Shown here: piece after piece, positions 19,758 to 50,355 of the stretch
How the letters are laid out: each line of letters opens with the position of its first letter
How positions within the stretch are numbered: the stretch's first letter is position 1
Origin: Spirochaetales bacterium
Lineage (GTDB): Bacteria > Spirochaetota > Leptospiria > Leptospirales > Leptonemataceae
NCBI GenBank assembly: GCA_015075425.1
Contig: JABTUL010000002.1
Span: 310,001 to 374,000, forward strand
Length of the DNA stretch: 64,000 nt
Reading direction: 5' to 3'
Notes under the pieces: model-generated
The model's database searches: none
The model's input: only the letters and a program-made list of their open reading frames with translations
What the model was told of the DNA's origin: nothing
Program-made: the position numbers and the translations under genes

Positions 19758-20357
19758 GTGGTTGCTTTATCCATCATTGCATTGAACGTTTTGATCTCTC
19801 TGATCGGTTTTGCTGCTTTTCGCAAAAACGACCGCGTGGAAAGATTTCTATTTATTCCGTCTTTGCTGCAAGCGGGACAGAACACCACGGGCTTTTTCCT
19901 TTCACACTTCTCCCATGCCAATTTTTTTCATTTATTTTTAAATATGTTTTCATTTATTTCCTTTGCCGGATCGATTGCAGAAATCAGCGGTGATGAGATT
20001 TTTATTCTTACCTATGTTGCAGCCGGGCTGGGCGGGGATGCTCTGGTGTATTATCTGCGCCGCAACCAGAGCGACTACCGCTGTCTGGGAGCAAGCGGAT
20101 CGGTTGTGGGCATTATTTTTGCCGCCATTGTCTACGATCCAAACATTGTGGTCACTTTCTGGGTCATTCCCATACCGGGCCCGATTTTTGCGCTGGGTTT
20201 TCTGGTTCTATCAGTGGTGCTGAGCCGCAAGGAATCGACAGGGATCAGTCATGAAGCACATGCCGGTGGGGCTGTAGCCGGGCTCCTCATGGCCGGGTTT
20301 ACCGCTCCCGGGGGGCTCTGGGGCTTGTGGCACTATTTTCAAAATTTACTGGCCTGA
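19758..20357 (+). CDS. rhomboid-family intramembrane serine protease
   Basis: 199 residues, GTG start, six predicted membrane helices. The catalytic serine lies in CLGASGSVVG and the catalytic histidine in ISHEAHAGGAVAG. The upstream loop HFSHANFFHLFLNMFSF supplies the usual His/Asn oxyanion residues. Rhomboids cleave transmembrane substrates within the bilayer; the substrate here is unknown. It precedes the redox-cyclase fusion by 30 bases on the same strand and may be co-transcribed with it. Confidence 0.9.
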   Translation: MVALSIIALNVLISLIGFAAFRKNDRVERFLFIPSLLQAGQNTTGFFLSHFSHANFFHLFLNMFSFISFAGSIAEISGDEIFILTYVAAGLGGDALVYYLRRNQSDYRCLGASGSVVGIIFAAIVYDPNIVVTFWVIPIPGPIFALGFLVLSVVLSRKESTGISHEAHAGGAVAGLLMAGFTAPGGLWGLWHYFQNLLA

Positions 20358-20387: not shown

Positions 20388-22091
20388 ATGGCATACACGA
20401 TTCATTTTGAACAGGATGGGCAGTTTGAGGTTGAGGATCCCGGTGCCACCTTCCTGGAAACGGCTCTTGCGCATAAAATTCCTCATGAACATGCCTGCGG
20501 TGGAATGGGGCGTTGCTCAACCTGCCGGGTGCTGATCCTTGAGGGTCTTGATCAAATCTGTGAGCGCAATGCAACGGAATCGGCTCTGGCTAAAAAGAAG
20601 GGACTGGAAGTCAATGTCCGACTGGCCTGCCAGACCACAGCCCGCGGACCGGTCCGCTTGCGCAGACTGGTCCTTGATGCGCTGGACCTCAAAGATGCCA
20701 GCGAATCGTCCGGAGCATCTACCGGACGCGAAGCAAACATCGCTGTCCTCTTCAGTGACATTCGAAATTTTACGAACTTCTCTGAGAAGCATCTACCTTA
20801 TGATGTGATCCACAGTCTCAACCGCTACTTTGCCCGCATGGGTCAGTGCGTCCTGGACCACGGTGGCCGCATCGATAAATATATGGGCGATGGCCTGATG
20901 GCTCTCTTTGGTCTGGAAGAAAGCGATGGACGATCAATATGCCTTGGAGCGGTGAGAGCGGCTCTGGACATGCGAGATAGCTTAACAGGAATCAATGATT
21001 ATTTAAAAAATCATCTAAATGAAACCTTCCACACCGGTATAGGAATCCACTACGGAAATGCTCTGGTGGGAGTGATTGGACATCCGCAATTACGGCAGTT
21101 TACGGCCATCGGGGATACAGTTAACATGGCCAGCCGCATTGAATCGATAACCAAAAAGGCAAAAAGCGACTTACTGATATCGGAAGAAGTGTATCGTCTG
21201 ATTGCAGACGATGTGGTCATCGGACGCAAATTCGTAACTGCCCTCAAAGGCAAAAGTGGTAAGTATCGACTCATGGAAGTGAAAGCCCTGGCCCGGGAAG
21301 TCACTCCGGGACCGGATACGGTCCAGACCTCAGATGACGTTCCGGAAGCGGCACAGGCAGTTTTCACCGAACCCGCACCGGCAGAGCCCGCCGCGGTGGA
21401 AGTAGAACGCGCATTTAAAAGTGCCGTGGTACTCGACAGTCTGGAAATGTCTCCCAACACCCTGACCTTTCGTATTCGCCCGGCAGATGCTTTTACTTTT
21501 GATGCTTCGCAGGCTGTAGAGTTGAAGTTGCCATCGGGGGAGTCCCGTATTCTTTCCATAGCATCAGCACCGAGCGGGCCTCTCTTGTTTGCCACGCGCA
21601 TCCGCACTTCAGCTTTCAAGAAGGAATTGCTCGAGCTAAAAAGCGGTAGCACGGTGGCAATCAGCGCCCCCATGGGCGGGTTCAACACTCAGAATGCCAG
21701 AACGCTCTTGATGCTGGCCGGGGGAATTGGTGTGACTCCCTTCCGCAGCTTAATCGAGGAAATGGTAGCCCGACCGGAAAAAAGAAAACCGATCACCCTG
21801 CTTTATTCCGTCAGGTTGTTGGGAGACGCTGTATTTCTGGATTTGATGGAAAGCTGGGTTCTGGAACTGCCTGATTTCCGTTTTGAGCTTTTTGGTTCAG
21901 AAATGCTCCACCCGCAGCCACCGTACAGAATGGGCCGTATCACAGCAGCCGATCTACAGGAGCATTTGCGAGAGGATTCTTCCATCCTGATAGCCGGATC
22001 TCCCAGGTTTGTCAAAGGAATGCAGGCACTGGTAAAAGAATTGAATCTTCCTGGCATTCCCGTTTTAACGGAACGCTTTGCCGGTTATTGA
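20388..22091 (+). CDS. triple fusion: [2Fe-2S] ferredoxin, class III nucleotide cyclase, ferredoxin-NAD(P)H reductase-like
   Basis: 567 residues without membrane segments, so cytoplasmic. Residues 1-90 are a plant/adrenodoxin-type ferredoxin with Cys 37, 43, 46 and 81. Residues about 115-300 are a class III cyclase with metal aspartates in LFSDIRNF (D124) and DKYMGDG (D168), Lys164 at the adenine-selecting position, and GDTVNMASR (N246, R250) for transition-state contacts, so it should be active. After a Pro/Ala/Glu linker (about 300-340), residues about 345-567 resemble an FNR flavin/pyridine nucleotide module: RILSIASAP, AGGIGVTP (about 444-451) and a C-terminal ERFAGY. The predicted role is NAD(P)H- or redox-controlled cAMP synthesis; the coupling is inference. 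Confidence 0.9.
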   Translation: MAYTIHFEQDGQFEVEDPGATFLETALAHKIPHEHACGGMGRCSTCRVLILEGLDQICERNATESALAKKKGLEVNVRLACQTTARGPVRLRRLVLDALDLKDASESSGASTGREANIAVLFSDIRNFTNFSEKHLPYDVIHSLNRYFARMGQCVLDHGGRIDKYMGDGLMALFGLEESDGRSICLGAVRAALDMRDSLTGINDYLKNHLNETFHTGIGIHYGNALVGVIGHPQLRQFTAIGDTVNMASRIESITKKAKSDLLISEEVYRLIADDVVIGRKFVTALKGKSGKYRLMEVKALAREVTPGPDTVQTSDDVPEAAQAVFTEPAPAEPAAVEVERAFKSAVVLDSLEMSPNTLTFRIRPADAFTFDASQAVELKLPSGESRILSIASAPSGPLLFATRIRTSAFKKELLELKSGSTVAISAPMGGFNTQNARTLLMLAGGIGVTPFRSLIEEMVARPEKRKPITLLYSVRLLGDAVFLDLMESWVLELPDFRFELFGSEMLHPQPPYRMGRITAADLQEHLREDSSILIAGSPRFVKGMQALVKELNLPGIPVLTERFAGY

Positions 22092-22137: not shown

Positions 22138-22503
22138 ATGCAGCAAACCGTACAGCCTTCTGTAATCCTCTGGTATCGAGTATACTGTGCTTCCATGCTG
22201 GTGCTCTATTTTCTCATGTTTGTAGGCGGGATTGTTCTATTTATTTTCCGATCCGAGGCTCTGGGCTCAGGAAATGAAACGCTGGGCATCGTTTACGCTG
22301 CGGCTCTGGTGCTGTCCAGCATGTTCTTTGGACTTCTTTTCATGGTCAGCTTTTTTCTGCCCTACCGTCCAGGTAGCTGGATCTATCATCTGCTTTTGAT
22401 CATTGCCGGATTGCCTTCTTGTTGCTGCATGCCGGCCAGCGTGGCCCTGCTCATCTACTGGGTGAAGCCAGAAACGCAGCGTTACTTTGGTCGTTCCGCT
22501 TGA
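22138..22503 (+). CDS. small polytopic membrane protein, unknown function
   Basis: 121 residues with three hydrophobic segments: MLVLYFLMFVGGIVLFIF, IVYAAALVLSSMFFGLLFMV and YHLLLIIAGLPSCCC. It ends in a short basic tail. Not recognised. It follows the redox-cyclase gene by 46 bases in the same direction, and its 3' end overlaps the convergent DsbA-like gene by 22 bases. Confidence 0.75.
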   Translation: MQQTVQPSVILWYRVYCASMLVLYFLMFVGGIVLFIFRSEALGSGNETLGIVYAAALVLSSMFFGLLFMVSFFLPYRPGSWIYHLLLIIAGLPSCCCMPASVALLIYWVKPETQRYFGRSA

Positions 22504-23135
22504 GGCTTTAGAGCCTGCTCCACAACAGGCAGGAGCGTTTCTGCTTTCTGGTAGCCATGAGCCACAAGAAAGACACCGGTGGGAGTTACCAGAAACAGCG
22601 CCGGGAACCCACGCACACCCAGATCGGCTGCTGCAAAATGAAAATCCTGATAGGTGGCTTCCAGGGTCTCCGGACGCGTGAAGCTGCGGGCAAAAAGCGA
22701 AGGCTCGACAAAAACAGATGCAATGCGTTCCAGCTCACCCGGTGATGTCAGGTTGACATTCTCCGCAAAAAAGGCATGAGAAAGTGCGCGCAGAAAGGGA
22801 AAGGCAGCATCTGCCTGGATGGTGCGCATGGCCACCACCGCCTGGCAGGCCGGAGCCGTATCGTAAAGAAAACCTTCGCGCTCGAAGAACTGCATCTGGA
22901 AAGGAAGACCCGTGGCCTCTGCCACTTCCAGCCAGTGGGCGTGTAAGAATTGTTTGAGTGCAGCATCCAGAGGTTCGGCCTGATCCCCGGGCCGCAATCC
23001 CCCGGCAATCACCATGATGGGCAGCCCGGTGGCCTGGCGAACGATTTCCAGCTCCGGGCCAAAGCCATAACACCAGGAGCACATGGGATCACCCACGTAC
23101 AGAAAAGATGGCTGGCGGGGCTGATTGCCTGACAT
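22482..23135 (-). CDS. DsbA-family thioredoxin-like protein (FrnE/2-hydroxychromene isomerase type)
   Basis: About 217 residues from MSGNQPRQPSFLYVGDPMCSWCYGFGPEL. The CSWC active site follows an FLYVGDPM strand, typical of the cytoplasmic DsbA relatives FrnE and YwbO. A long helical insert follows, then the cis-proline segment GVRGFPALFLV. There is no signal peptide from this start. The frame is open further upstream, but that part overlaps the glycosylase gene. Predicted to be a disulfide oxidoreductase or isomerase in the cytoplasm. It begins five bases after the MIG-like glycosylase stop, so the two are one operon. Confidence 0.85.
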   Translation of the reverse strand: MSGNQPRQPSFLYVGDPMCSWCYGFGPELEIVRQATGLPIMVIAGGLRPGDQAEPLDAALKQFLHAHWLEVAEATGLPFQMQFFEREGFLYDTAPACQAVVAMRTIQADAAFPFLRALSHAFFAENVNLTSPGELERIASVFVEPSLFARSFTRPETLEATYQDFHFAAADLGVRGFPALFLVTPTGVFLVAHGYQKAETLLPVVEQALKPQAERPK

Positions 23136-23139
23136 CCAG

Positions 23140-23796
23140 CTACTTCTCTGGAGGCTGGCTGGAAAGGCGATTAAAATTACAGCGCTTCTGTAAGGGACAT
23201 AGAGCGCAGTTCGGCCGCCCTGGCCGGCAAACAAGTGCACCCAGATCGACAAGAGCAAGATTGAGCTGACCGGCACGGGGGCTCTGAACAAAGGCCCGGG
23301 CCGTTTCTAAGAGCTCCCGACGACGCCGAAAATCGGGCCGGTACGGGCGGCCGGCCAACCGATAAAAAATTCGCACAACATTGCTATCAATGGCCGGTCT
23401 GCGCTGGCCAAAAAGGAGGCTCAAAATCATCGCTTCACTGTAACTGCCCACGCCAGGGATGGCCTGCCACCGTTTTCCCTGGTCCTCATCTTTGCGACAG
23501 AGTCCGCGAACAACACTGCCATCCTGTAAAACCGCCAGAGTCCGGGCAAACTGTTCGGACCGCCAGTTGAGTCCCAGCGGCCGGAAGAGCTCCCGGAGTT
23601 GTTCTTTTTTGAGGCTCGCAGTCTTTGCCGGAGCGGGATACTTCCGGATAAAATTCTGATACACGGGCAGGACCTGGTCGGCCCGGGTCCGCCGCAGCAT
23701 CATCTCCGCTACCAGCAGATGGTACCAGGAAGAGCTGCGCCTCCAGGGATAGGAGCGGCCATGCTCGCCAAACCAGCCCAGCAAAGAACGGCGCAT
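23140..23796 (-). CDS. HhH-GPD DNA glycosylase, MIG-like (T/G mismatch)
   Basis: 218 residues from MRRSLLGWFGEHG (23796); the longer open frame runs into the methyltransferase gene. HhH-GPD features are IPGVGSY (helix-hairpin-helix, Tyr119) and Asp137 in AIDSNVVR. A C-terminal [4Fe-4S] loop has Cys 190, 197, 200 and 206 (C-x6-C-x2-C-x5-C). Tyr after the hairpin, where endonuclease III has Lys and MutY has Ser, plus LRRTRADQV and LGLNWRSEQ, resemble the archaeal thymine-DNA glycosylase MIG. Adjacency to a cytosine-C5 methyltransferase supports repair of deaminated 5-methylcytosine. MutY is the alternative; the full length of about 218 residues lacks its C-terminal NUDIX-like domain. Confidence 0.82.
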   Translation of the reverse strand: MRRSLLGWFGEHGRSYPWRRSSSWYHLLVAEMMLRRTRADQVLPVYQNFIRKYPAPAKTASLKKEQLRELFRPLGLNWRSEQFARTLAVLQDGSVVRGLCRKDEDQGKRWQAIPGVGSYSEAMILSLLFGQRRPAIDSNVVRIFYRLAGRPYRPDFRRRRELLETARAFVQSPRAGQLNLALVDLGALVCRPGRPNCALCPLQKRCNFNRLSSQPPEK

Positions 23797-23836
23797 CGCC
23801 GGGAAGTAAGCGAACGGAATGAGAAGTCCTGATCCG

Positions 23837-24859
23837 TCAGGCGATTTTACGCCGGGAATGGATTGCGGTTTTGCGTTTTCCCGTTTTTTGCGGCTTGAGA
23901 AAGCCGACTGTTTGCCCACCAAAGACTTTCTTGATTTCACCTGCAATCGCTTCCACCACCGGAACAGCCACGGAATTGCCAAACTGCCTGTAGGCCTGTG
24001 TATCGGAAACAACGATTTGAAAGCTGTCCGGAAAACCCATGAGCCGTGCGCACTCACGCGGGGTGAGTCGCCGTGGATTCTGACCCGGCACAGGAATTAA
24101 GATTTCTGAACCATCTTTGTAGTAACGGGCCGACAGTGTGCGCGTCTGACCTTTAAGGTCAACCAGTCCGTAGCCAAAACCGTGACCCCGTTCTCTGTGG
24201 CGTTCACGATAATCCTGTAAATACTGCCAGAGGTGGTCACTGAGCGTATAGCGATCGTCCACTCGTTTTTCAAGGATACTCTGAATGGCCGGACGCGTTG
24301 CCGGCGGCGGCGGAAAAGCAAAGCCATCCAGATCCACGGGAGAAAGAAATCCGACAATGAAAAGGCGCTCCCTTTTCTGTGGCAAGTAGGGACTGGCACT
24401 GACGATCTGAGTTTTCAAAGAATAGCCAAGAGACTTCAGAGAAGTTTCAATCAGAGAAAAGGTACGGCCGCCATCGTGTCCATAAAGATTCTTTACATTT
24501 TCGAGAACAAAAGCCCGGGGCCGTCTTTCTTTTAAGATACGGGCAATCTCAAAAAAGAGTGTGCCCTGCGTGCGATCGAGAAACCCGTCTGGCCGGCCCA
24601 GCGCTCTTTTCTTGCTTACCCCGGCAATGCTGAAAGGCTGGCAGGGAAACCCGGCAAGCAAGAGGTCAAAGTCCGGCAGATCTTTTGCGGCAATACCCCG
24701 AATATCGCCGGCAGGCATTTCCGCAAAATTGGCCTGATAGCTGCGCGCGGCAAACGCATCCCATTCCGAGGAAAAAACACAGGAAAAACCATGCCTCTCA
24801 AACGCAAGGCGGAAGCCGCCAATACCTGCGAATAGATCAATGAAGCGCATCTTTAACAT
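23837..24859 (-). CDS. DNA (cytosine-5) methyltransferase
   Basis: About 340 residues. Ordered motifs are: I FIDLFAGIGGFRLAF; IV GFPCQPFSIAG with the catalytic Cys; VI VLENVKN; VIII PQKRERLFIVGF; IX-X LTPRECARLMGFPDSF and RQFGNSVAVPVVEAI. Complete and apparently active. The start is either MLKMRF (24859) or MRF (24850); the frame extends upstream without homology. No restriction endonuclease gene is visible on either side. The nearby MIG-like glycosylase looks like its repair partner, comparable to the Dcm-Vsr logic. The target site lies in the variable region between motifs VIII and IX and cannot be read by eye. Confidence 0.95.
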   Translation of the reverse strand: MLKMRFIDLFAGIGGFRLAFERHGFSCVFSSEWDAFAARSYQANFAEMPAGDIRGIAAKDLPDFDLLLAGFPCQPFSIAGVSKKRALGRPDGFLDRTQGTLFFEIARILKERRPRAFVLENVKNLYGHDGGRTFSLIETSLKSLGYSLKTQIVSASPYLPQKRERLFIVGFLSPVDLDGFAFPPPPATRPAIQSILEKRVDDRYTLSDHLWQYLQDYRERHRERGHGFGYGLVDLKGQTRTLSARYYKDGSEILIPVPGQNPRRLTPRECARLMGFPDSFQIVVSDTQAYRQFGNSVAVPVVEAIAGEIKKVFGGQTVGFLKPQKTGKRKTAIHSRRKIA

Positions 24860-24896
24860 GGTCGGCAGCTTATCACTGCCCTGTGACACAAAAGCC

Positions 24897-25988
24897 TTAA
24901 TCCCGTGGTAAGTGCAAAGCACGATCCAGGTAGAGCAACTGACGCTGTACGGCGCGGCCCGAGACATCATGCGCATAGACGGTGAGATAGAGAAGTCCGG
25001 TCTTTGTCCGGTACGCGGGAAACCGCCCGCCCAGGGAACCATGGCCGGTTCCGTTCAAAGCAATCGGCCGGGAGCCCAGTTGGACCCTAACCCTTTGAAA
25101 GTCCGCAGCTTCAATGCGCAGTTCTCCTGCCGGCTGAATGTAGGATCCATCCTCTGGATGGATCCGAATACGTGCCGGTGCCGGCAACTCAAGATAGTGG
25201 TGCAAGGTCTGCAGGGAGTGTTCTGTCATCAGCATGAATCGCTGTAACAGGAAAGGATTGGTATGTCGCTCATTGCGGCCCGGGTGGATGGTAAAGGCCA
25301 TGGTGTAGCCGGCAGCTCGCGCTTCTTCGATAACTCGCGCATCGTAAAGGCCAAAAGGATAGGCCAGCGCCCGAATCTGGACTCCCAGCTTTTCCTCCAG
25401 GATACGTTTTGATTCTACAAGCTGGCGGCGGATTTCCGCGCGGCCGGCCAGGGGCAGTTTAGGATGGGTCAGGGTGTGCGAACCCACTTCCAGCACTCCG
25501 TTTTTGAGAACTTCCCGGACACGGTCCCAGCGCATGTAGTAGGCATTTTTTGTTTCAATAATAGAAGGATAGAGAAACAGAACACCGGTCATTCCGTACT
25601 TAGCCAGGAGGGGACTGACCACGTCTGCCTGTGACGTTAACCCATCATCAAAGGTTAAGAGAATGGGACGTTCTGGAAAATCGGCAGAAAAACGGCCGGC
25701 CAGGGCATCTTCCATCTGGCGTAGAGTTATGGTTCTATAGCCTTTCTCTATGAGCGACTGTAGCTGGGCTTCAAAAACGGCCGGCTGAACATTGTAGCCG
25801 CCAAAGGTTTTTGTTCCTTCATAGGTCTGGTGATAGCAGAGTACAGGAATGGAGACCGCCCGTGATTCGTCGGGCGTCGGGGGAGCAGTCCCGGTCTTGT
25901 AGAACGGTCTGACAGCAATGACAGCGCTCAGGAGGCAACAGACCGCAAGCAGGGGAAAGAAAAGGAAGCGAAAGGTTTTCTTACTCAA
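24897..25988 (-). CDS. polysaccharide deacetylase (NodB) family protein, membrane-anchored
   Basis: I chose the TTG at 25988, five bases after a GGAG Shine-Dalgarno sequence. It gives SKKTFRFLFFPLLAVCCLLSAVIAV, a signal anchor. The open frame to 26084 would overlap the divergent transporter. The NodB core shows ILLTFDDGLTSQ (catalytic and metal Asp), VGSHTLTHPKL (HxxxH metal site) and RALAYPFGLYD. A C-terminal beta-rich domain of about 100 residues follows. It probably de-N-acetylates a cell-wall or exopolysaccharide at the outer face of the inner membrane. Confidence 0.9.
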   Translation of the reverse strand: MSKKTFRFLFFPLLAVCCLLSAVIAVRPFYKTGTAPPTPDESRAVSIPVLCYHQTYEGTKTFGGYNVQPAVFEAQLQSLIEKGYRTITLRQMEDALAGRFSADFPERPILLTFDDGLTSQADVVSPLLAKYGMTGVLFLYPSIIETKNAYYMRWDRVREVLKNGVLEVGSHTLTHPKLPLAGRAEIRRQLVESKRILEEKLGVQIRALAYPFGLYDARVIEEARAAGYTMAFTIHPGRNERHTNPFLLQRFMLMTEHSLQTLHHYLELPAPARIRIHPEDGSYIQPAGELRIEAADFQRVRVQLGSRPIALNGTGHGSLGGRFPAYRTKTGLLYLTVYAHDVSGRAVQRQLLYLDRALHLPRD

Positions 25989-44165: not shown

Positions 44166-44235
44166 TTTTGTGCAGGAGAAATGGGGGAAGCTTTCCGTGG
44201 CAAGGTTTTCTTCCAGGAGTGCATCTCTTAATCGC

Positions 44236-46086
44236 ATGGCGCTGACTGAACGATTTTCCTTCCGCTCGCGAATGCTGGCCGGTATCCTCTCCCTGGCTCT
44301 CCTGCTCACCGGAGCCGGCGGAATATTTTATTACTTCAGCACGCGCGCTCTGGTCGTTTCTCAGCTGGGCGCACGTCTGAAAGATATTGGTCGTACGGCT
44401 GCCTATCTGTTCAGTCCGGAGGACCGGCGCGCCATGCGCAGCCTGCGCGAAGAGCTTGATCGATTGAGTTTGCCCGTTAGCGCGGAGCAACTGGCCATAA
44501 GCGATGAAGAAACTTTCAGCACTCTTCCTGACGAGGATTCTACAAGACTCATGCAGGATGCGGGCTATCTTAAACTGGTTCAGAAGCTGCGGCAGATTAA
44601 GGAAGCCAGCCGTGATAGCGTCTTTCCCTGGCGATTTATCCCCCAGCGGCTGGAAAAAGACAGTGCTCCCCTGATCCACTTTGCCTATCTTATGGTGCCG
44701 GTGAAAGAGTCCGTCGATGGACGCATCATCAAAAGCCTGGCCGATTCAGATATAGAAAACATTGATCAAAATAATAATGGGAAAATAGATAGCGAAGAAG
44801 AAGGAACGTCCCCCGGCACGGCCTGGCCCGTTCCCGCTGAACCTTTCCGGCGCGCCTTTCAGGGCCAGGCCGCATCGTCACCGGGCTGGTACAGCGATAA
44901 ATGGGGGACCTGGATTTCTGCAGCCATTCCCATCCTGGATGATTCCGGCCAGGTGGTCGCCGTACTTGGCCTGGACTACAACATGAAGCAGGAAGCCAGC
45001 CTGCTGGAACGAGTCCTGGGCATTGCCATTGCTCTGGTTTTTGTTGGAACTCTGCTTTCTGTCATTCTGTCCATCATGCTCTCCCGATTGCTTTCGCGCA
45101 GCGTCCGCTCGCTGGCCGGAGCTGTGGAGCAATTCACCGGCAAAAATTTTGACGCCCGCGTGCCTGTGACCTCAAACGATGAGATCGGCCGCCTGGGAAC
45201 CGCTTTCAACCGCATGGTTGATGAGATCCGGGCCTATTCTGATGGCCTGACCGCCACACTCACGGCCATTGAACGCTTCGTGCCCCGGGAGTTTCTGCAA
45301 CAGATGGGTCATGAAACCGTGATTACCGTGTCCCTGGGCGACCAGGTAAGCCGGCAAATGACGGTCTTTTTCTGCGATATTCGGGCCTTTACAACCCTTT
45401 CTGAATCCATGACCCCCCGCGAGACGTTTGCCTTCATAAATGATTATTTGAGTCGTGTTTCTCCCATCATTAGAGAAAATCATGGATTTATTGATAAATA
45501 CATTGGCGATGCCATTATGGCCCTCTTCCCCGGTGATCCCCTGGATGCGGTAAAAGCGGCCATCCAGATTATGCTGGAGCTTGCTTTGCTCAACAATGAC
45601 CGGAGCCAGCAGGGGCTACCGGAAGTTCGCATAGGCATCGGTATCCACCACGGCGAAACCATGCTGGGCACAGTGGGCGAAGAGCAACGCATGGACGGCA
45701 CCGTGATCTCTGATGCGGTGAATGTAGCCGCCCGACTGGAGAACCTGACCAAGAAATTTGGCGCTTCGATCCTTGTCAGTGAAGAGACTCTCCGGCTTGC
45801 GGAAAAAAAGGCCGGTCATGGTTTTGCCTCCCGAACTCTTGGTTCCCTCAGGCTGCGTGGCAAGAAGCAAAGCATGGCAGTGGTGGAAATCCTGGATGGC
45901 CTGGGAAAAGCAGAAATGCAGGAAAGACTGGATAGCGCGCCAATGATTTTGAGAGCAACGCGCTTGATGCAACAGAGGCAGTATCCGGAGGCCCGCAGTC
46001 TGCTCAAGGAAGCAGCCCGGCTTTACCCGCTGGACCGCTCGCCGCGTCTGCTGCTGGTGCGTCTAAAAAAACTCATGGCCGCTTAA
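44236..46086 (+). CDS. membrane nucleotide cyclase with external sensor, EF-hand loop and HAMP
   Basis: I used the ATG at 44236; GTGs at 44197 and 44170 (residue numbering below counts from 44170) are possible. A first membrane helix near 35-55 is followed by an extracytoplasmic sensor to about 280. Inside it, D199-E210 reads DQNNNGKIDSEE, a perfect canonical EF-hand calcium loop. A second helix (about 283-305), a HAMP segment and a class III cyclase follow. The cyclase has FFCDIRAF, DKYIGDAIMALF and SDAVNVAARLE. All metal and transition-state residues are present and Lys in IDKYIGD favours ATP. A short helical tail ends it. Calcium control is inference. Confidence 0.9.
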   Translation: MALTERFSFRSRMLAGILSLALLLTGAGGIFYYFSTRALVVSQLGARLKDIGRTAAYLFSPEDRRAMRSLREELDRLSLPVSAEQLAISDEETFSTLPDEDSTRLMQDAGYLKLVQKLRQIKEASRDSVFPWRFIPQRLEKDSAPLIHFAYLMVPVKESVDGRIIKSLADSDIENIDQNNNGKIDSEEEGTSPGTAWPVPAEPFRRAFQGQAASSPGWYSDKWGTWISAAIPILDDSGQVVAVLGLDYNMKQEASLLERVLGIAIALVFVGTLLSVILSIMLSRLLSRSVRSLAGAVEQFTGKNFDARVPVTSNDEIGRLGTAFNRMVDEIRAYSDGLTATLTAIERFVPREFLQQMGHETVITVSLGDQVSRQMTVFFCDIRAFTTLSESMTPRETFAFINDYLSRVSPIIRENHGFIDKYIGDAIMALFPGDPLDAVKAAIQIMLELALLNNDRSQQGLPEVRIGIGIHHGETMLGTVGEEQRMDGTVISDAVNVAARLENLTKKFGASILVSEETLRLAEKKAGHGFASRTLGSLRLRGKKQSMAVVEILDGLGKAEMQERLDSAPMILRATRLMQQRQYPEARSLLKEAARLYPLDRSPRLLLVRLKKLMAA

Positions 46087-48990: not shown

Positions 48991-50355
48991 ATGGAATCAA
49001 GCCGGATATACGGCCAGCGCAAGCTGGATCTACTCCCCCCGATGATGCGCACCGCTACCGGTCGCCTGGAAATCAAACGCAGTGACCTGGAAGGCATCCT
49101 GCTTCAGTCGCGCAACCTGTCGCTGCTCATGGATGTTGTGCGCAATATCATGACCCGAACCGATTTGCAGACTTTGCTGGGGCAGATCATGGGCGATGTA
49201 ACCACGGTTATGGAGGCAGATCGCAGCACGCTCTTTCTTCTGGACCGGGAAAAAAATGAAATCTGGTCAAGCATCGCCCAGGGAGAAGAAGTCATCCGCC
49301 TGCCCAGAGGCACCGGCATTTCCGGTCATGTCATCGACTCCGGGCAAATCGTCAACATTGCCGATGCCTACAACGACCCGCGCTTCTTTCCCGATTACGA
49401 TCGCAAAACAGGCTACCGCACCAGGACCATTCTTTGTGTTCCCATCTACAATCCTCAGGCGGAGTTGATCGGCGCGATCCAGGTGCTCAACAAAAAGACC
49501 GCTCCGGTTTTCTCTGAAGCCGATGAAAAACTGCTCAGCGCCTTTTCTTCGCTGGCCGGAATTGCCATCGCCAATGCTTTTAGTTTTGAGACCATGGAGA
49601 GACTGGTTGCCGCACGCACCGCAGAGCTACGCGAGGAGCGCGACAAATCGGATCGTCTGCTGCTCAACATCCTGCCGCTGCATGTTGCCCAGGAACTCAA
49701 AGCCAGTGGCACGGTAAAACCGGTATTCTTTGACTACGCCACAATTCTCTTCACCGATTTTAAAGGATTCACTAAAGTAGCCCAGCGAATGGCTCCCGAG
49801 CAACTCATCGGCGAACTGGACAGTGTATTCTTACAATTCGATACCATCTGCGAACGCAATGGCATAGAAAAACTTAAGACTATTGGCGATGCCTATATGT
49901 GCGCCGGAGGACTGCCGGTTTCCTCAAAAACGCATGCTATCGATGTCTGCCTGGCTGCTCTGGAAATTCGCGAATTCATGGCTGAGACACGGCGTATCAA
50001 ACAGGAGATCACCGGCGAAAAATTCTGGGAAGTGCGCATTGGCGTACACTCCGGCCCGGTAATAGCCGGCGTAATTGGAAAGAATAAATTTGCCTATGAT
50101 GTCTGGGGTGATGCCGTCAATGTGGCCAGCCGACTGGAGTCTTCCGGCCAGCCCGGCGAAATCAATATCTCAAGCGACACCTACAAACTGGTTAAAGATT
50201 TCTTTGAATGTGAACCGCGAGGAAGCATCGCTATCAAAAACCGGGGCGAAGTAGAAATGTATTTTCTGCGATGCATCCGGCCGGAGCTTTCACGGGATCC
50301 GGAGGGTAAAATCCCCGCAGAAGCATTCTACCAGAAAAAAGCAAGCCTGGCTTAA
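48991..50355 (+). CDS. GAF-domain adenylate cyclase
   Basis: 454 residues, cytoplasmic. A GAF domain at about 45-200 (ADRSTLFLLDREKNEIWS, GTGISGHVIDSGQIVNI, RTRTILCVPIYN) is joined by a short coil (LVAARTAELREERDKSDRLLLNILP) to a class III catalytic domain. Motifs are ILFTDFKGFT, KLKTIGDAYM and YDVWGDAVNVASRLE. The Lys of KTIGD and Asp of YDVWG are the adenine-recognising pair of mammalian-type adenylate cyclases. It should make cAMP under control of a small molecule bound by GAF. 34 bases after the glycogen synthase gene, so probably in one transcript. Confidence 0.93.
   Translation: MESSRIYGQRKLDLLPPMMRTATGRLEIKRSDLEGILLQSRNLSLLMDVVRNIMTRTDLQTLLGQIMGDVTTVMEADRSTLFLLDREKNEIWSSIAQGEEVIRLPRGTGISGHVIDSGQIVNIADAYNDPRFFPDYDRKTGYRTRTILCVPIYNPQAELIGAIQVLNKKTAPVFSEADEKLLSAFSSLAGIAIANAFSFETMERLVAARTAELREERDKSDRLLLNILPLHVAQELKASGTVKPVFFDYATILFTDFKGFTKVAQRMAPEQLIGELDSVFLQFDTICERNGIEKLKTIGDAYMCAGGLPVSSKTHAIDVCLAALEIREFMAETRRIKQEITGEKFWEVRIGVHSGPVIAGVIGKNKFAYDVWGDAVNVASRLESSGQPGEINISSDTYKLVKDFFECEPRGSIAIKNRGEVEMYFLRCIRPELSRDPEGKIPAEAFYQKKASLA

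Follow-up and report, generated by a model that had tools for sequence, protein, structure and literature searches.

A soluble ferredoxin-class III cyclase-reductase fusion of Leptospirales as a candidate redox-controlled adenylyl cyclase

Domain organisation of the fusion protein

We analysed a 64,000-nucleotide stretch of a Spirochaetales bacterium genome (contig JABTUL010000002.1, positions 310,001 to 374,000), hereafter called the window. One ORF in it starts with ATG, contains no internal stops and encodes 567 uninterrupted residues. Its parts are as follows.

20388..22091, + strand: whole ORF, Fer2 - class III cyclase - FNR-like reductase fusion, 567 aa (ORF, Pfam and alignment)
20421..20642, + strand: Fer2 [2Fe-2S] domain, residues 12-85, with Cys 37, 43, 46 and 81 (Pfam; C-x5-C-x2-C-x34-C)
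20643..20729, + strand: ferredoxin-cyclase junction, residues 86-114, RRLVLDALD...TGRE (alignment conservation, near-fixed length)
20730..21251, + strand: class III nucleotide cyclase domain, residues 115-288, predicted adenylyl cyclase (Pfam, PDB and Foldseek; Lys164/Thr239)
21291..21413, + strand: Pro/Ala/Glu-rich flexible tether, residues 302-342 (low pLDDT; length varies among fusions)
21414..22088, + strand: FNR-like FAD/NAD(P)-binding reductase module, residues 343-567 (RILS at 387-390, AGGIGVTP and terminal ERFAGY; profile matches)

The first-pass annotation had read this ORF as a triple fusion of a four-Cys [2Fe-2S] domain, a class III cyclase and an FNR-like module, and the Pfam, NCBIfam, PDB and family-profile searches agreed with it. 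Fer2 (PF00111; residues 12-85, 5.5e-10), Guanylate_cyc (PF00211; residues 115-288, 2.7e-24) and NAD_binding_1 (residues 442-546, 9.4e-13) were matched above the curated cut-offs, but FAD_binding_6, the remaining Pfam family that the annotation had named, was not matched in the window copy and was found in 2 of 12 family members. The C-terminal module matched NCBIfam BenC (residues 323-565, 3.3e-20) and PDB 1krh (residues 324-518, 4.5e-13), and the profile of this module built from the family matched NqrF best (5.8e-30), followed by BenC (7e-30) and MmoC (4e-28), indicating that the C-terminal part is related to FNR domains as had been claimed. The Fer2 domain also matched the Isc ferredoxin model TIGR02007 (residues 15-84, 1.4e-12); with its adrenodoxin/Isc-ferredoxin-like Cys spacing, it qualifies by sequence as a vertebrate/Isc-type ferredoxin domain, and its four cluster Cys were invariant among the aligned fusions.

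Class III cyclases use a pair of metal-binding Asp residues, an Asn and an Arg acting on the transition state, and a Lys-Asp/Thr pair for adenine, which points to ATP rather than GTP. The metal-binding residues Asp124 and Asp168, together with Lys164/Thr239, Asn246 and Arg250, were intact in the window protein, in line with the original reading, and were invariant across the 12 aligned fusions. We predict from Lys164 and Thr239 that the cyclase uses ATP, although these residues alone are no proof of the product. Foldseek placed the domain in the class III cyclase fold, with matches to CyaC and CyaB at target TM scores of 0.82-0.88.

By sequence, the reductase module counts as FNR-like, with RxxS, GGIGVTP and ERFAGY present and a caveat at two positions. 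Canonical FNRs have Tyr or Phe at the aromatic position of RxYS. AGGIGVTP and ERFAGY stood as the annotation had listed them, but its RILS motif has Leu at position 389, a place held by Phe in the 11 other fusions. In addition, Ser replaces the family Gly (PGQ) at position 374, and the window FNR formed the longest branch of the fused FNRs in the FNR tree (2.04 changes per column). R-x-F-S, G(I/M)G(I/V)TP and the GQ part of PGQ were all retained in the other fusions, and the homologue L010/L038 pairs a canonical pocket with a short tether. Judging from the two unusual pocket residues and the long branch, flavin binding or activity of the window reductase may be reduced.

Distribution and ancestry of the fusion

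A full-length Fer2-cyclase-FNR fusion was found in 12 of the 48 genomes examined of the class, with 42-43% identity to the window protein over the chain, and Fer2, Guanylate_cyc and NAD_binding_1 were all matched by Pfam in each of the 12. In a thirteenth genome (G008), a contig end cuts the locus, and all that remains ahead of the FNR is the tail end of a cyclase. The carriers span 7 genera and 3 families. A frameshift or assembly artefact behind the fusion, which would have overturned the original reading, was excluded by the 11 further full-length fusions at ~42% identity; the intact ends of the protein were confirmed as well.

Sampling of ~1,480 genomes from six other groups yielded Fer2-cyclase cores but no full fusion. 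These groups were other Spirochaetota (345 genomes), Pseudomonadota (399), Planctomycetota (294), Marinimicrobia (199) and the phyla of the SAR324 locus (52) and the Myxococcus locus (195). Note that 3 to 27 candidates were scored per genome and most groups were sampled, so that rare fusions can escape this survey. None of 737 matching plasmid records covered 80% of the fusion. We found no report of a Fer2-cyclase-FNR fusion in the open-access literature; subscription papers and the UniProt/InterPro architecture tables were outside the scope of this search.

In two relatives, G041 and G042, the Fer2-cyclase is bare and an FNR of 236-241 aa is encoded by a gene of its own. These two genes are on different contigs in G041, whereas in G042 they are divergent neighbours on one contig, ~140 bp apart. 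In the FNR tree, the 13 fused and these 2 standalone FNRs formed one clade (support 100/98), separate from every other FNR of the class in the comparison, namely NqrF-like, oxygenase-reductase-like and hydrogenase-gamma-like proteins. The divergent pair and the shared clade suggest a functional link between the parts, a pattern expected if they work together.

Spacing of the domains and structure models

The spacing between the third and fourth cluster Cys was x34 in all 63 family cores with measurable motifs. From the fourth cluster Cys to the first metal-binding Asp the distance was 39-47 residues, and exactly 43 in 11 of the 12 FNR fusions, whereas the distance from the cyclase to RxxS, measured between marker motifs, ranged from 74 to 101 residues among the FNR fusions. 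Within the junction, R92, L94, V95, D97, D100, G113 and R114 were invariant in the 12-fusion alignment, as was the neighbouring E115, and we propose that residues 86-114 are a signal-transmitting element. The window tether was predicted to be disordered, with pLDDT below 50 at residues 306-313 and 315-342. A near-fixed ferredoxin-cyclase junction combined with a loosely attached reductase would suit a ferredoxin that is mechanically coupled to the cyclase and a reductase that docks.

With a homologue model, Foldseek gave lengthwise alignments to GcoB, T4moF and BenC over 551-555 columns, in which the cyclase fell into a gap. The first-pass annotation had looked to structure prediction for domain contacts; this did not succeed, as the models left the relative placement of the domains undetermined (pTM 0.52 and 0.58).

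Other redox modules joined to the Fer2-cyclase core

A class I, ascorbate-peroxidase-like heme peroxidase follows the Fer2-cyclase core at nine loci of the class (L011, L012, L013, L017, L026, L028, L033, L034 and L147; PF00141, best 1.2e-41) and at one locus of Planctomycetota (L232, 1.2e-28). Among solved structures, the peroxidase module matched cytosolic ascorbate peroxidase best (1.2e-28); the distal Arg/His and the proximal His were aligned, and it is possible that these fusions are H2O2-sensing cyclases. One genome, G011, encodes both the FNR and the peroxidase versions. In Marinimicrobia and SAR324, the core continues into a Rieske domain (L252 and L253 of SAR324; L043, L045, L240-L247 and L251). 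Two SAR324 Rieske fusions also have two or four N-terminal CDGSH stretches, and such a chain would place CDGSH, ferredoxin and Rieske clusters beside one cyclase.

YceI follows the core in several Leptospirales proteins (L035, L036, L155 and L159); the cyclase domain of L159 had no Pfam match and may be degenerate. In other spirochaete families, three Fer2-cyclases (L177, L178 and L180) have an N-terminal DUF2769, a domain of unknown function.

Most of the modules joined to the core are redox proteins. Fer2-cyclases that stand bare, with no fused redox partner, are also common, so that the core can do without the FNR. In the free core tree, the FNR and peroxidase types interleaved, and a single origin was not rejected for either the FNR fusion (AU p 0.444) or the peroxidase fusion (AU p 0.485); the number of fusion events cannot be counted because the core tree is poorly resolved.

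A proposed redox input to the cyclase

We read the cluster as an electron carrier and as the input of the cyclase mainly on the ground that one core is joined to redox proteins again and again. Given this pattern, the conservation in 13 genomes and the split divergent pair, redox control of the cyclase, as the first-pass annotation had proposed, is the best explanation, although it remains an inference from comparative evidence. Specifically, we regard it as somewhat probable that the protein works as a soluble adenylyl cyclase whose activity follows the redox state of the built-in [2Fe-2S] ferredoxin, onto which the C-terminal module loads electrons from NAD(P)H; the sequences show the domains and residues, whereas the cofactors, electron flow and regulation are inferred, and there is no biochemical evidence for them. 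In such a protein, NAD(P)H would reduce the flavin of the FNR-like module, and the long variable tether would let this module dock on the ferredoxin, so that the flavin could hand electrons to the N-terminal cluster as in benzoate-dioxygenase-type reductases. The cluster would be drained by some cellular oxidant, O2, a quinone or another acceptor, which is unidentified. The short conserved junction would then relay the change to the cyclase homodimer and alter cAMP output in a direction that is not known. The family probably converts the cell redox state into a cAMP signal. In favour of the redox-set cyclase we also count the 28 cyclic-nucleotide-binding domain matches in the host genome.

The same anatomy is compatible with a cluster that senses oxidants, NO or iron supply through its oxidation or loss, with the FNR merely resetting it with NAD(P)H. 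The signal would then be the oxidant, following the logic of SoxR plus its reductase. Fer2-cyclases without a fused donor fit this alternative, and the peroxidase fusions suggest an oxidising input; however, it leaves unexplained why 7 genera carry a reductase, of all partners, in the same chain instead of providing it in trans, and we consider it unlikely without dismissing it. The divergent flavin pocket of the window protein, with Leu389, Ser374 and the long branch, could instead mean that the FNR module has turned into a ligand sensor, in which bound flavin or NAD(P)(H) controls the cyclase allosterically and no electrons pass to the cluster. We hold this to be quite improbable, since the flavin and nucleotide motifs are kept in the other fusions, the Fer2 cysteines are invariant and the other partners of the core are mostly redox proteins.

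Fer2 and FNR alone make a complete electron-transfer module, as in BenC, T4moF and GcoB, and the two might therefore serve an external acceptor, with the cyclase joined for co-expression or localisation and without regulatory coupling. But then neither the conserved, near-fixed junction nor the wide retention of the core without FNR would be expected; moreover, no oxygenase partner was recognised beside the gene and no neighbour was conserved across distant fusions, so that we give this possibility very little weight. An assembly artefact or chance juxtaposition found no support and is refuted by the 12 full-length fusions in separate genomes, leaving it virtually no probability.

Beyond redox control of the window protein, we tentatively suggest, as a possibility that may well not hold, that the Fer2-cyclase core serves bacteria as a general converter of electron flow into cAMP. 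Its redox sources would be NAD(P)H through the flavin reductase, H2O2 through the heme peroxidase, Rieske and CDGSH clusters, and quinones through a cytochrome-b anchor, and the flow through one cluster would set the level of the second messenger. The swapped redox modules on one core are in our view a more interesting finding than the window fusion alone, and these natural swaps (FNR, peroxidase, Rieske, CDGSH and cytochrome b) form a series for asking if one cyclase core reads several redox currencies. We know of no enzyme whose cAMP production has been shown to scale with the flow of electrons through an iron-sulfur cluster of its own. Donor, carrier and cyclase in a single soluble chain make a testable system, with NADH or NADPH in and cAMP out, and the FNR version could become a genetically encoded NAD(P)H-to-cAMP switch.

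Comparison with known systems

Ferredoxin-coupled class III cyclases are a known kind, as the earlier annotation had stated; what sets the window fusion apart is the C-terminal FNR in the same chain. Beltz et al. (2016; PMC4821796) described ~30 proteobacterial cyclases with a cytochrome-b-like anchor, predicted to hold two hemes, before the ferredoxin. These membrane-anchored class IIIb adenylate cyclases (cluster 1, R. palustris Q132R4 type) resemble the window protein in that a ferredoxin directly precedes the class III cyclase and a redox input is implied. However, in them an N-terminal 6TM anchor supplies the second redox part, whereas the window protein is soluble and has a C-terminal NAD(P)H-type flavin reductase; its Fer2 starts at the N-terminus of the ORF with no 6TM anchor before it, so that it does not belong to cluster 1.

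BenC, T4moF and GcoB share the N-terminal [2Fe-2S] and C-terminal FAD/NAD parts and were the best structural matches spanning both redox ends. Unlike these proteins, the window protein has a complete class III cyclase between the two halves, and with no oxygenase or other conserved neighbour it is not a BenC-type oxygenase reductase. NqrF, subunit F of Na+-NQR, likewise has Fer2 and FNR modules in one chain, but it serves respiration as a subunit in the membrane and has no cyclase; a separate NqrF-like gene is present in the host genome (C1:2159726-2160583). That cAMP acts as a messenger within this order is shown by LprA of Leptospira kobayashii, a photoactivated adenylyl cyclase (PMC9043183). 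LprA and the window protein are thus alike as sensor-regulated adenylyl cyclases of leptospires, the regulation of the latter being inferred, but LprA is activated by light and no ferredoxin-FNR arrangement was reported for it (PMC9043183).

Genomic surroundings

The host genome is 4.13 Mb in 4 contigs and encodes ~50 class III cyclases. A conserved operon was rejected, as no neighbour gene is conserved beside distant fusions. A rhomboid protease gene (window 19758-20357, + strand) ends 30 bp before the fusion gene and is perhaps co-transcribed with it. On the other side, a DsbA-like thioredoxin-fold protein is encoded at 22482-23291 (- strand), and its homologue adjoins the fusion of G011 in a different arrangement. 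At 23140-25042 (- strand), a C5-cytosine DNA methyltransferase overlaps a MutY/EndoIII-like HhH-GPD glycosylase (26.0 bits, just below the Pfam cut-off), which we take to be possibly a pair for methylation and repair of 5mC deamination, as with Mig.MthI. Two more class III cyclases are encoded in the window at 44170-46086 and 48991-50355, one with HAMP and one with GAF.
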